A DNA stretch of 64,000 bases. Origin: Candidatus Firestoneibacteriota bacterium. GTDB taxonomy: Bacteria > Oederibacteriota > D2-FULL-39-29. The DNA lies in the NCBI GenBank assembly GCA_903928075.1, contig CAIYPD010000012.1, forward strand, positions 1-64,000. Reading direction: 5' to 3'. The translations under genes were made by a program, and so were the position numbers. Positions 1,373 to 48,312 of the stretch are shown piece after piece (the first letter of the stretch is position 1; each line of letters begins with the position of its first letter). The notes below the pieces were generated by a model, which had not been told where the DNA came from, searched no databases, and was given only the letters and a program-made list of their open reading frames with translations.

Positions 1373-1576
1373 ATGAAAGATTTCAAGTGGAGTAATCTGG
1401 GTTTTGCTTCCGGTATGGGCTTTACTCTCGTTTTATCCACCTTTGCCGGGTTAGCCGGCGGATATTTTCTTGACAAATACCTCGAAAGTTCCCCTGTTTT
1501 TACGCTTATTTTTTTCGTAATCGGGACTGTTTCAGGATTCTACTATATAATAAAAGAAGCGGAGAAATTAAAATGA
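1373..1576 (+). CDS. atpZ: AtpZ-like F0F1 ATP synthase accessory protein
   Basis: A 67-residue protein with two hydrophobic helices around a glycine-rich turn (GLAGGYFLDKYL), the pattern of the 'ATPase gene 1' family that opens many bacterial atp operons. With AtpI it has been linked to c-ring assembly and to Mg2+/Ca2+ uptake. Here it is first in the operon and overlaps atpI by four bases (ATGA), indicating translational coupling. Length and position match the family. Confidence 0.8.
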   Translation: MKDFKWSNLGFASGMGFTLVLSTFAGLAGGYFLDKYLESSPVFTLIFFVIGTVSGFYYIIKEAEKLK

Positions 1577-1887
1577 ATTATGATGTACTACTTGCCGTTA
1601 GCGGCGCACTAGCAGGTTTTTTAGTAGGGATGGGCAATGCTTACCTACGAAAAGTAGCAGCAAAAAGATTACTCAAAACCGAAAAGAAAATGGCCGTCAC
1701 CCTGGTTTCGCTCTTTTCGTTAGCCAGGCTCGCTATTATTGCTCTAATAGTTTATAGCCTGTTTTTCTTAATAAAATCGAAAATTTTCGCAATCGGCGCC
1801 GTCGGGGGACTGGTTATCAATTCTTTTCTCACCACTTTTTACTATATTATAAAGAAGAAGTCGCTTAAAGAGCAAGAAAAGGTATAA
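1573..1887 (+). CDS. atpI: AtpI-like ATP synthase assembly protein
   Basis: A 104-residue protein with about four hydrophobic segments, fitting the ATP synthase protein I family (a chaperone for c-ring assembly). The call rests mostly on place: coupled by ATGA overlap to atpZ and one base before subunit a. The sequence itself is weakly conserved, as is usual for AtpI. Confidence 0.65.
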   Translation: MNYDVLLAVSGALAGFLVGMGNAYLRKVAAKRLLKTEKKMAVTLVSLFSLARLAIIALIVYSLFFLIKSKIFAIGAVGGLVINSFLTTFYYIIKKKSLKEQEKV

Positions 1888-1888
1888 A

Positions 1889-2626
1889 ATGGCAGAAGAA
1901 GAAGTATTAAAAGAAATAATTTTTATACATATTCCCGGGGTTCCGGAAGCGCTAACTATGTCGTGGATTGCAATGGGAATAATTATTGTAGTCGGGTTTC
2001 TTGGTTCTTATAGCATAAAAATGGCCCCCCGGGGCGCCCAGAACATGGTCGAATTTGGCATAGATTGGGTTACGGATAAAACTCGTGAATTTATGGGCGA
2101 GAAAGGCCCGGCCTTCCTTCCGCTATTTTTGACCCTCTTTTTATTTATTTTTGTTTCAAATCTGCTGGGACTAATTCCGGGATTTAAATCTCCCACGAGC
2201 AATATCAGCGTAAATCTGGCACTCGCCCTGATAATATTTTGCTCCACGCATTACTTCGGCATAAAAGAAAAAGGCGCTATTGGTTATTTTAAGCATTTCA
2301 TGGGCCCACCCTACTGGCTTGCGCCCCTATTTTTTATAATACATATAATAGGCGAATTGGTAAGGCCGGTATCGTTAACGCTCAGGCTTTTTTTTAATAT
2401 TCTGGCAAAAGAAATTCTGCTTACGCTCCTGGCAACTTTATTTTTTGCCTTTATGATGCTTGAAATGCCTAAGGCAATACAGTTCTTGCTGTTGACCGGG
2501 GATTTTCTTCTCCGTCCGGCCATTATTCTGCTTGGCGCTCTTGTAAGCTTTATCCAGGCATTGGTTTTCACTGCCTTATCTATGATTTATATAGGCAGTG
2601 CGGTCACGCGCGAAGAAGAACATTAA
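1889..2626 (+). CDS. atpB: ATP synthase F0 subunit a
   Basis: A 245-residue multi-spanning subunit forming the ion half-channels beside the c-ring. The essential Arg lies in SLTLRLFFNILAKE (R166); the usual motif is RLFGNM.AG, so the Gly-to-Phe and following changes are mildly divergent. The last helix carries the conserved Gln (SFIQALVFTALSMIYIG). Followed by 127 bases of repeat-bearing DNA before atpE. Confidence 0.95.
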   Translation: MAEEEVLKEIIFIHIPGVPEALTMSWIAMGIIIVVGFLGSYSIKMAPRGAQNMVEFGIDWVTDKTREFMGEKGPAFLPLFLTLFLFIFVSNLLGLIPGFKSPTSNISVNLALALIIFCSTHYFGIKEKGAIGYFKHFMGPPYWLAPLFFIIHIIGELVRPVSLTLRLFFNILAKEILLTLLATLFFAFMMLEMPKAIQFLLLTGDFLLRPAIILLGALVSFIQALVFTALSMIYIGSAVTREEEH

Positions 2627-2753
2627 AAGACAAGTACGAAGTATTACACTTTTGAGTTTTAAAAACAAGACCAAATTAATGTAAAACTTTGTACCTTGTA
2701 GTTTGTACTTTGTACTTAATTTCACGGGCTAAGAGCCCAAAGGGAGGGAATTT
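2627..2753 (+). repeat. atpB-atpE intergenic region with a dispersed short repeat
   Basis: The second half holds TTTGTACTTTGTACTT-type repeats (about 2685-2718), and an inverted partner (gacaagtacgaagtatt) begins at about 2629. The same arrangement recurs at 48165-48295 in front of gltX. Both copies end just upstream of a strong Shine-Dalgarno (here AAAGGGAGGG). An inverted REP-like element is the best description; no gene is seen. Confidence 0.45.
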
Positions 2754-3125
2754 ATGGGAGTTCTTGAAGTATCTATTCTTGTTGCAGGTATTGCTATGGC
2801 CGTGGGGTCTTTGATGACCGGTCTGGCACAGGGTCTCTCTGTAGCCAAAGCCATGGAAGGAATATCCAGACAGCCGGAAGCTGCAGGAAAAATACAGGGC
2901 GCACTTATAATAGGTCTCGCCTTTATCGAATCTATTGCTATTTATGTGCTGGCTATTGCAATCATCATCCTCTTTGCAAACCCGTTCACCTCGTCTACGG
3001 TAAGCGAACAGAAAGCAAAATCGGAAGTTGCAGTACTTAAACTTGAAATAGAAAAAATCAATCTCGAAAAAGAACTTACGGCCATGAAAGCCGGATCAGG
3101 AAAAGTAGAAGTCAAGAAAAAGTAA
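2754..3125 (+). CDS. atpE: ATP synthase F0 subunit c with long C-terminal extension
   Basis: Residues 1-78 are a standard two-helix c subunit: the polar loop RQPEAAGK is at about 39-46, and the ion-binding carboxylate is E59 in GLAFIES. Q26 and E59-S60 keep the 33-residue spacing of the Na+ ligands in Ilyobacter tartaricus (Q32, E65, S66), suggesting sodium coupling; the usual Thr after Ser is Ile here. Normal c subunits end at about NPF; this one runs on for 45 residues (79-123), with a Lys/Glu-rich coiled-coil-like stretch. The c-subunit C-terminus faces outside in known structures, so the extension would line the outer side of the ring. Confidence 0.93.
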
Positions 3126-3216
3126 TATTTACTGCCTCGGCCTAAACCTTAAGTGGCTTCTTTTGTAAGGAATTATATGGCAAGGGCCGGCAAAAACCAC
3201 TTTAAGAAGGCAAAAA

Positions 3217-3708
3217 ATGATAAACCTTAATGTTGACCTGGGAATACTTATCATCCAGGTAATAACCTTTTTGCTCGGGATGATTTTGATTTGGCAGGTA
3301 TTCTTAAAAAAGTTTTCAAAAAAACTTTCAGAACGCTCTGCGCACATTAAAGACACTCTGGACGAAATCGCCAAACAAAAAATAGAAGTAGAGGCGCTCA
3401 AAGCGGATTTCCAGAAACAGCTGGAAACCATAGATAAGAAGTTCCAGGATAAGATACGCGAGGCCACCAAAGAGGGCAGCGAAATTAAGAATGACCTCGT
3501 GCTTCGCGCCAGAGAAGAAGCAAAACTGCTTCTTGTGAAGACCGGCGAGAAACTGGAAATTGAAAAAGAAAAGATGCTCAAAGAGATGCGCATCGAAATA
3601 ACCAATCTCGCTCTCTCCATCGCAGAAAAGGTACTTAAGGAAAATGTCGGAAAGCAGCAGCAGGAAAAACTTGTCGCAGACCTGCTTAAGGAGCTTGAAA
3701 AGAAATAA
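3217..3708 (+). CDS. atpF: ATP synthase F0 subunit b
   Basis: 163 residues: one N-terminal membrane helix (LGILIIQVITFLLGMILIW) followed by a long charged helix typical of the peripheral stalk. Its stop codon shares a base with the atpH start. The 91-base gap after atpE contains AAGTGG and CCACTT arms 46 bases apart, possibly a loose hairpin. Confidence 0.93.
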   Translation: MINLNVDLGILIIQVITFLLGMILIWQVFLKKFSKKLSERSAHIKDTLDEIAKQKIEVEALKADFQKQLETIDKKFQDKIREATKEGSEIKNDLVLRAREEAKLLLVKTGEKLEIEKEKMLKEMRIEITNLALSIAEKVLKENVGKQQQEKLVADLLKELEKK

Positions 3709-4238
3709 TGCTTGTTAAAACTATCGGAAAAAAATATGCTTCCGCGCTTTTTGGCGTAGCCGGGGATTTAGAGCGTATTGATGAAATCAAAACTGCCCTG
3801 GAAACTTTCGCCGCCTGTATGAACAAAGAGGCTTTTGTCTCTTTTAAAAATCCCAAACTTTCCCTTGCCGTAAAACAGGCCGCTTTAAGAAAAAGCATTA
3901 ACGGAAAACTGCCGACAGAGCTTGTGGGTTTTTTGTGCCTGCTTATTGCGAAAAAACGTTTTGAGTTTTTACCGGAGATAGTCAAAGAATTCAATATACT
4001 CTATGATGAAAAGCACGGCCTTAAATCAGCAGTAGTAGTGAGTGCTTTCGAAGTAACAAAAACCCAGCAGGAACTGATTAAAAACACGCTTGAGAAAAGA
4101 TACAGCAGTAAATTTTTGGTGGATTTTTCTGTAGATGCATCCTTGCTTGGCGGCATAATTATCAACATAGGTAACGAGATGATAGACGGAAGTCTAAAAA
4201 ACCAGCTTGCAAAAATTAAAACAAGACTATTAAGTTAA
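3708..4238 (+). CDS. atpH: ATP synthase F1 subunit delta
   Basis: 176 residues, the usual length. The C-terminal signature is present as DASLLGGIIINIGNEMIDGSLKNQLAKIKTRL. It links the b stalk to the top of the alpha/beta hexamer. One-base overlap with atpF and a 15-base gap to atpA. Confidence 0.93.
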   Translation: MLVKTIGKKYASALFGVAGDLERIDEIKTALETFAACMNKEAFVSFKNPKLSLAVKQAALRKSINGKLPTELVGFLCLLIAKKRFEFLPEIVKEFNILYDEKHGLKSAVVVSAFEVTKTQQELIKNTLEKRYSSKFLVDFSVDASLLGGIIINIGNEMIDGSLKNQLAKIKTRLLS

Positions 4239-4253
4239 CCAAAAGGGGTCCTT

Positions 4254-5798
4254 ATGGCAAAAGATATTAAGACAAATCCTGAAGAAATAGCTTCAATATT
4301 AAAAGGGTTGATCTCTGATTTTGAGAGCAAGCTTGACCGGAAAAATACCGGCGTGGTGCTTCAAGTCGGCGACGGTATCTGCAGGGTATACGGCCTCGAC
4401 GAAGTCAGATATTTCGAACTGGTCGAATTTAAAGGCGGTATCTTCGGCATCGCATTAAATCTTGAAAGAGACAATGTCGGTATAGTTATCCTTGGCGACG
4501 ATAAAATGATAAAAGAAGGCGATGTCGTCAAGTGCACGGGCCGGGTAGTCGAAATCCCGACCGGTAAAGAACTCTGCGGAAGAGTAATTGACGCTCTGGG
4601 AAATCCTTTGGACGGCAAAGGGCCCATCCCGACAAAAAAAACCAGACCAATAGAAATGCGGGCGCCTTCGGTTATTGAAAGGGCACCGGTTAAAAACCCG
4701 CTACAAACCGGGATAAAAGCAATTGACTCCATGATTCCTATCGGACGGGGACAGCGGGAACTTATTATTGGGGACCGGCAAACAGGAAAGACCGCAATTG
4801 CTATTGATGCAATCATTAACCAGAAAAACAGCGATGTTATCTGTATTTATGTGGCTATCGGCCAAAAAAAATCTACCGTGGCCCAGGTAGTGGATGTCCT
4901 TGAAAAAAACGGCGCAATGGATCATACTATAGTAGTTTCTGCTACGGCTTCTGATCCTGCCTCCCTTCAATATATTGCACCTTATGCGGGCTGCTCCATA
5001 GGTGAGGAATTCAGAGATTCAGGTAAGCATGCACTTATAATATACGATGATCTTTCAAAACATGCGGTCGCGTACAGGGAAATCTCCCTTCTTCTTCGCA
5101 GACCTCCGGGCCGAGAAGCGTACCCCGGAGATATATTCTATCTCCATTCCCGTCTTCTTGAAAGAGCAGCGAAGATGAACGAGCAAAAGGGCGGCGGGAC
5201 TTTAACCGCACTGCCCATTATTGAAACCCAGGCGGGCGACATTTCGGCTTACATCCCGACTAATGTTATTTCTATAACAGACGGACAGATATATCTTGAA
5301 GGAAGTTTATTCTACTCCGGTATCCGCCCTGCCATAAATGCAGGTCTGTCGGTATCCCGCGTCGGCGGCTCGGCTCAAACCAAAGCCATGAAGAAAGTTG
5401 CCGGGGGTTTAAGAAATACTTTGAGCCAGTACTGGGAACTGGTTAACTTTGCCCAGTTTGGGGCCGAGCTGGACAAGTCTACACAATCCCAACTGTCCCG
5501 GGGACAGCGGCTGGTGGAAATCCTTAAACAAAACCAGTATGAACCGGTACAAATGGAAAGACAGGTTATGATACTTTTTGCCGTAACCAAAGGGCTCTTA
5601 GATGATTTCCCTGCAGATAAAATAAAGGCCTTTGAGACCGGATTCTACAAATTTGCCGACGAAAATCAGCATAAACTGGTCGCAGGAATAAGAGACACCC
5701 TGGACCTGGATGCCGGTGCCGCTGAAGCACTCGAAAAAACCATCATAAATTATAAAAAAATATTTTTAGCCAGCGAAAACGGCGCCCCGGAGGATTAA
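4254..5798 (+). CDS. atpA: ATP synthase F1 subunit alpha
   Basis: 514 residues, full length. The Walker A loop is [13 protein letters not shown], and [20 protein letters not shown] and [20 protein letters not shown] are conserved alpha-subunit blocks. Strong Shine-Dalgarno AAAGGGG. In most bacteria gamma, beta and epsilon genes follow; here a cyclic-nucleotide-binding protein begins on the very next base. Confidence 0.97.
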
Positions 5799-6314
5799 AT
5801 GCCTAAAATTTTTAAAACTATAAGAGATATTCTTGTCGGTGAAAAAACAGAAATTGTAAAAGTTCTTGAAAGAGTCCCCATCTTTGCCGGCTTAAGTCTT
5901 ATTGAACTTAAAAAAATAGAAATAATAACTCACGAACGCGAATATATGGACAACGAAATAATCTTCAACGAAAAAGAACCTGGTGCAGGAATGTATATAA
6001 TAAAATCCGGCAGTATTAAACTATCCAAGAAAGTTGACAACAAACAGGTCTTTCTTATGTCCATGACTGAAGGTGATTTTTTTGGAGAAATTGCGCTCTT
6101 AGATGAGTCCCCAAGATCGGCTACCGCAACTTCCGCCGGTAAGACAAAAATACTCGGCTTTTACAGACCCGATTTTCTTGACTTATTAAAAAGAGAACCG
6201 AAACTCGGCTCTAAAGTGCTTCTAAAACTCGCCCAGATGATTGCGGCAAGATTAAGAGAAACAACCGAAAGCAGAGTCAAAGGAACAGCTGATGGAAACG
6301 AGACAGAACCTTAA
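5799..6314 (+). CDS. Cyclic-nucleotide-binding domain protein without DNA-binding domain
   Basis: 171 residues holding one CRP-type cNMP-binding fold, with the phosphate-binding cassette FGEIALLDESPRSATA at about residues 95-110. The C-terminal part is a helix (KVLLKLAQMIAARLRETTES) and no helix-turn-helix follows, so it is probably not a transcription factor. It starts immediately after atpA and overlaps the next gene by 23 bases, so it is in the ATP synthase transcript. Ligand and partner are unknown. Confidence 0.85.
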   Translation: MPKIFKTIRDILVGEKTEIVKVLERVPIFAGLSLIELKKIEIITHEREYMDNEIIFNEKEPGAGMYIIKSGSIKLSKKVDNKQVFLMSMTEGDFFGEIALLDESPRSATATSAGKTKILGFYRPDFLDLLKREPKLGSKVLLKLAQMIAARLRETTESRVKGTADGNETEP

Positions 6315-48156: not shown

Positions 48157-48312
48157 CAAGTATTTACAAATGACAAAGTACAATATATGATAAGCAGTTA
48201 TAAGCTATCGCTGATATATATTAAATACATTTTTGGAAGGCGGAGTATTTTCCGCCAACATTATTTTGTACTTTGTCCTTCGTACTTTGTACTTATCTTT
48301 TAGGAGGGTTTT
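48157..48312 (+). repeat. dedA-gltX gap with dispersed GTACTTTGTACTT repeat
   Basis: Contains gacaaagtacaat (about 48170) and, inverted, TTGTACTTTGTCCTTCGTACTTTGTACTT-like sequence (about 48266-48294), the same arrangement as ahead of atpE. A GGCGGA/TCCGCC hairpin (about 48239-48256) may terminate dedA. AGGAGG for gltX follows. Confidence 0.45.

Follow-up and report, generated by a model that had tools for sequence, protein, structure and literature searches.

In the rotor ring of F-type ATP synthases, both ends of each c subunit lie outside and the RQP loop lies in the cytoplasm, a topology that is established for the family, and ions pass between the ring and subunit a. The factors that set the number of c subunits per ring, and hence the ion cost of ATP, are a long-standing question. 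The c subunit is also among the best-studied clients of YidC. In the solved rings 2wie, 6fkf, and 1yce, each chain forms a two-helix hairpin with an RQPE loop, carries the ion-binding Glu on helix 2, and reaches an ANPF end; the chains then stop at NPF or within about ten residues. The AtpE protein encoded in the window analyzed here, a stretch of DNA of 64,000 nucleotides whose nearest named genomes are those of Candidatus Firestonebacteria, shares all of these elements and is 47% identical to both 2wie and 6fkf over 76-78 columns, but it continues for 45 more residues, which are predicted to form a third helix.

Two described systems resemble this arrangement in part. At the mouth of the bovine mitochondrial c8 ring, subunit e likewise contributes an additional C-terminal segment on the outer side; however, it is a single tail that originates from a non-rotor subunit, whereas AtpE would supply one tail per rotor subunit (PMC7519299). 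In alpha-helical barrels, as in the AtpE tail, heptad repeats form two seams per helix, which in the barrels face two neighbors; Type-2 barrels contain 5-7 helices with seams at a/e and d/g, whereas the seams of the AtpE tail are located at a/d and b/f, and a barrel is hypothetical here (PMC6175849). What appears to be new is an extra conserved helix on every subunit of the ring, which should point outward and which is absent from the solved rings and from the about 200 other bacterial c subunits compared here. On sequence grounds, tailed AtpE can be regarded as a known protein in a variant specific to its lineage, for which a structural role is plausible. Our preferred reading, to which we assign a probability of roughly 0.45, is that the tails form a crown of parallel helices, one per c subunit, that ties the ring together from the periplasmic side. 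If a ring does carry its own oligomerizing helices outside the membrane, the c number becomes testable by cutting or swapping the tails.

The c subunit core and its C-terminal extension

The match of AtpE to PF00137 covers residues 9-72 and scores 52 bits against a curated cut-off of 24. Residues 6-78 align without gaps to the plant and cyanobacterial solved c rings, through the common ANPF, and the hairpin in the AlphaFold2 model has the same fold as the c rings in the PDB. The polar loop of the hairpin (R39-Q40-P41-E42) and the carboxylate E59 in helix 2 are invariant across the tailed set. The gene is located between atpB and atpF of the atp operon and is thus encoded with other F-type subunits (atpB, atpF, atpH, and atpA are adjacent; atpG, atpD, and atpC lie elsewhere). 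Following N76-P77-F78, the 45-residue tail continues in frame; it is rich in Lys and Glu and net positive (10 Lys versus 7 Glu). On our best reading, AtpE of the tailed order is a normal F-type rotor-ring subunit that carries one more helix, about 30 residues long, at its C-terminus (Table 1).

Table 1. Positions of atpE, its parts, and the neighboring atp genes in the window
Feature	Position	Strand	Basis
atpB, subunit a	1889..2626	+	PF00119, 6e-57
atpE, ATP synthase subunit c with C-terminal tail (123 aa)	2754..3125	+	ORF and translation; PF00137, 8.7e-14; homologues
c-subunit core, ordinary two-helix, residues 1-78, ANPF end, ion-binding Glu = residue 59	2754..2987	+	Alignment to solved c rings; AlphaFold2 helices 3-39 and 41-75
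Short linker, residues 79-83	2988..3002	+	AlphaFold2 helix break at 76-79
Predicted tail helix, residues 84-111, two hydrophobic seams (a/d, b/f)	3003..3086	+	AlphaFold2 helix; periodicity; conservation
Lys-rich end, residues 112-123, weakly conserved, probably disordered	3087..3122	+	pLDDT <50 at 116-123; 19% identity between families
atpF, subunit b	3217..3708	+	PF00430, 4.4e-16
atpH, subunit delta	3708..4238	+	PF00213, 4.5e-43
atpA, subunit alpha	4254..5798	+	TIGR00962, 4.9e-241

The outer helix of the Burkholderia N-type ring has a kink where it meets the periplasmic surface; the kink lies at a Phe located 15 residues past the ion-binding Glu (PMC5376962). By residue count, the counterpart of this Phe in the window AtpE is F74. 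Because the topology of c subunits is established, the part of AtpE past F74, including the tail, should be located on the outer (periplasmic) face. The Na+ ligand set of Ilyobacter comprises Gln32, Glu65, and Ser66 together with Tyr70 (PMC2359735); the window AtpE carries this set as Q26, E59, S60, and Y64, and these residues are shared by the eight tailed proteins and by the majority of the phylum. Na+ coupling is possible but does not track with the tail, since many relatives that have no tail carry this ligand set too.

Conservation and distribution of the tail

A c-subunit match was obtained in 43 of the 45 genomes of the phylum. The tail is present in eight genomes of the window's order (G000 and G003-G009), which represent two families, f1 and f2, and in each of them it comprises 45-46 residues after NPF; for the seven genomes other than that of the window, identity is 57-86%. 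Every genome of the order in which atpE was found is tailed, a statement that excludes G010 (family f1), where atpG was found and atpE was not, perhaps owing to an assembly gap. For the less diverged pairs, to which the calculation was limited because dS of the tail is mostly saturated between the families, dN/dS of the tail is 0.126 (window-L081), 0.035 (L082-L083), 0.051 (L084-L085), and 0.143 (L085-L086), and that of the core in the same pairs is 0.02-0.03. These low values indicate that the tail stretch is translated and constrained by purifying selection.

The initial annotation had described a 45-residue tail after NPF, had pointed to an assembly error at about position 2990 as one of two dangers to this claim, and had proposed a search for other AtpE proteins of more than 115 residues. 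That search yielded tails of 45-46 amino acids in seven more genomes of the same order; since the tail recurs in frame in all of these and its dN/dS is low, a frameshift, an assembly error, or an artefact of annotation around position 2990 is ruled out for all practical purposes, and the original description of the tail stands.

Eight tail residues (E91, L95, L97, E98, E100, K101, L104, and E105) are invariant in f1 and f2, and identity between the two families amounts to 55% in the heptad core (residues 88-108) and to 19% in the last 12 residues. This conservation bears on a scenario, the other danger named in the initial annotation, in which the tail is made and then cleaved, so that the mature ring would consist of the ordinary core alone. 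The calculated mass of the c subunit is 12,769 Da with the tail (12,797 Da when formylated) and about 7.9 kDa if the tail is removed. The linker and the Lys-rich end could indeed serve as cut sites; nevertheless, it is the sequence of the tail, beyond its length, that is conserved across the two families, and cleavage appears very improbable.

The other members of the phylum whose sequences were read have c subunits that end about 25 residues past the ion-binding Glu. These proteins, which belong to other families, resemble AtpE in the core and mostly in the Q/E/S/Y residues of the ion site; however, they bear an N-terminal extension that resembles a signal peptide (as judged by eye) and have no tail, whereas tailed AtpE shows the reverse. 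In a set of 208 distinct c ORFs (the tailed ones included), drawn from the same phylum and from loci labeled Desulfobacterota, Bacillota, Armatimonadota or Zipacnadia, Margulisbacteria, Pseudomonadota, and others, the untailed ORFs, about 200 in number, extend at most 21 residues past the position of F78; the earlier remark had been that c subunits usually stop soon after helix 2. When a profile that covers the tail was run against about 530 genomes from five further phyla, no match listed continued into the tail without a stop; one of these scans listed its best matches only. Moreover, none of the solved c chains matched beyond query residue 84, and a fold comparison against the PDB returned ordinary c subunits only, over about 66-79 columns; by sequence and by fold, the solved c chains thus offer no precedent, in agreement with the initial statement that no well-studied ring is known to have such a tail. 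Compared with Pfam on its own, the tail matched nothing above threshold, Trypco2 (E = 0.02) being the one weaker match, and searches of the open-licence PMC literature turned up no bacterial c subunit described as having a long helix at its C-terminus. Within the genomes surveyed, the tail appears to be confined to the window's order; unrelated long tails may occur elsewhere.

The length of the tail and the N-terminus of the tailed proteins are central to the main rival of the crown, which concerns biogenesis. According to this explanation, the 45-46 residues would hold helix 2 on the ribosome for co-translational insertion by Sec and for export of the tail, replacing the usual post-translational YidC route, and would thereby compensate for the missing N-terminal signal peptide that sister families carry. 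A membrane helix gets to the translocon only once about 45 further residues have been synthesized, and because YidC has to handle them, C-tails destined for export are as a rule short and hydrophobic (PMC11589881). The AtpE tail, which represents a natural exception to such C-tails among YidC clients, just meets the limit of about 45 residues in every tailed genome, and the signal-like N-terminus of the sister families is absent from the tailed proteins. However, a pure spacer needs neither invariant heptad residues nor the two-faced pattern described below, and ordinary c subunits that have neither a tail nor a signal peptide insert unaided. We regard this explanation as unlikely, although the tail length also suits it, and both roles can coexist.

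Predicted structure and helical pattern

In the AlphaFold2 model of the window AtpE monomer, the two core helices (Table 1) are followed by a third helix at residues 80-117; pLDDT by block is 78-89 over residues 71-110 and falls below 50 from residue 116. A third helix (residues 80-114) is also predicted for the f2 protein of L003. A heptad explains 61% of the variance in hydropathy of residues 84-112 (permutation p = 0.0013), which bears out the heptad-like character originally ascribed to the tail. The second helical harmonic is significant (p = 5e-5 for the mean profile, 0.003 for f1, and 0.006 for f2), whereas the first is not (p = 0.58-0.94 in single sequences); therefore, the tail helix has two opposite hydrophobic faces. 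A GCN4 control gave the reverse pattern, with a first harmonic at p = 0.009 and no second, and among four segments of the window's own AtpF, two displayed the first harmonic without the second and two displayed neither. The two hydrophobic faces on one helix that were looked for as the mark of a helical barrel or crown are thus found in the tail, with a second-harmonic strength that went unmatched in a control set of 74 charged segments, free of Gly and of inner Pro, taken from the window's other proteins. As the periodicity statistics were picked after the sequence had been seen, the p-values are optimistic.

The a/d seam consists of residues 94, 97, 101 (a Lys), 104, 108, and 111, and the b/f seam of residues 88, 92, 95, 99, and 102; positions c, e, and g are mostly charged. 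In f2, the second face is weaker (N99, K102). The earlier description of the tail as coiled-coil-like can be kept insofar as a helix is predicted and a heptad pattern is present, but not in the sense of a one-seam coiled coil. A leucine zipper was rejected because the first harmonic is not significant, unlike that of GCN4. An amphipathic beta strand (period 2.0-2.2) did not reach significance either, and AlphaFold2 predicts a helix. Such a pair of opposite faces would favor packing between two neighbors over simple dimers.

A possible crown on the periplasmic side of the ring

As every c subunit would contribute one tail, the tail helices could line up in parallel to form a crown, in which each helix would pack against both neighbors through its two hydrophobic faces and which would rotate together with the c ring. 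Such a crown could act as a clasp that stabilizes or sets ring assembly, and it may fix the size of the ring. We count in its favor the tail length of 45-46 amino acids, the low dN/dS, the third helix predicted in both families, the heptad pattern with its two faces, the difference in identity between the heptad core and the last residues, and the angle between the seams; if 3.5 residues per turn are assumed, this angle is about 155 degrees, close to the interior angle expected for a ring of 14-15 members. We count against it the weaker second face in f2, the post hoc choice of tests, and the seam angle of 173 degrees obtained at 3.6 residues per turn, a value that is uninformative on ring size. 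It is also conceivable that the tail could pack on something besides the neighboring tails.

In a more far-reaching version, which we consider unlikely, the c ring of Firestonebacteria would bear a barrel in the periplasm that turns with it, built of parallel helices contributed singly by the subunits; the barrel would determine the ring stoichiometry and give the rotor's outer mouth its shape. In such a barrel, Glu 91, 98, and 105 would form three stacked invariant rings on one side. If true, the barrel would represent a structural class of rotor ring unseen before.

The exposure of two hydrophobic faces, together with the Lys-rich end and the net positive charge, would also suit a tail that binds a periplasmic partner (a protein, peptidoglycan, or lipid head groups) and in this way places or brakes the rotor. 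A fixed partner, however, cannot hold a rotating ring during work. Moreover, the secreted K/E-repeat protein encoded next to the operon is absent from f2, where the tail is kept, and the subunit a sequences of the tailed genomes lack a common insertion. Docking seems unlikely.

Returning to the crown, the initial annotation had allowed for a gate at the outer face as an alternative to it. This idea finds no support because the ion path runs along the interface of the ring and subunit a; when subunit a was compared among the tailed genomes, no common periplasmic insertion was found, a loop insertion occurring in genus g2 only.

Genomic context

In addition to the genes listed in Table 1, the atp operon holds a gene for an ATPase_gene1 protein and one for a 104-amino-acid membrane protein without a family match. 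The operon is split: one part is located at 1373-5798 of the window and the other, which comprises atpG, atpD, and a short atpC-like ORF, on a second contig (G000:C66:23449-24291) behind guaA; the names guaA and atpC were assigned from sequence, with no family search behind them. In all tailed genomes, atpE and atpG are found on separate contigs, whereas they lie within about 4 kb of each other in many other members of the phylum. In both tailed families, atpA is directly followed, at the usual place of atpG, by a gene for a protein with a cNMP-binding domain (5799-6314 in the window). In the window, an AI-2E-type transporter is encoded behind it.

On the other side of the operon, in f1 only, the reverse strand encodes a secreted-looking protein with K/E-rich repeats of about 24 residues (574-1230), which is adjoined by an ECF-sigma-like frame on the same strand (1-522). 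As an obligate partner of the tail, the K/E-repeat protein was rejected, given that it occurs in f1 genomes and is absent in f2. Within subunit a (1889-2626), the motif RLFGN is changed to RLFFN (G to F) in f1 only, and f2 keeps RLFGN.

An RNA hairpin was sought between atpE and atpF, and none was indicated (z = +0.3). The stretch between atpB and atpE contains head-to-tail 7-base repeats of the TTTGTAC type (2629-2717), which recur at 48265-48294, and it folds better than shuffled sequences (z = -2.7).
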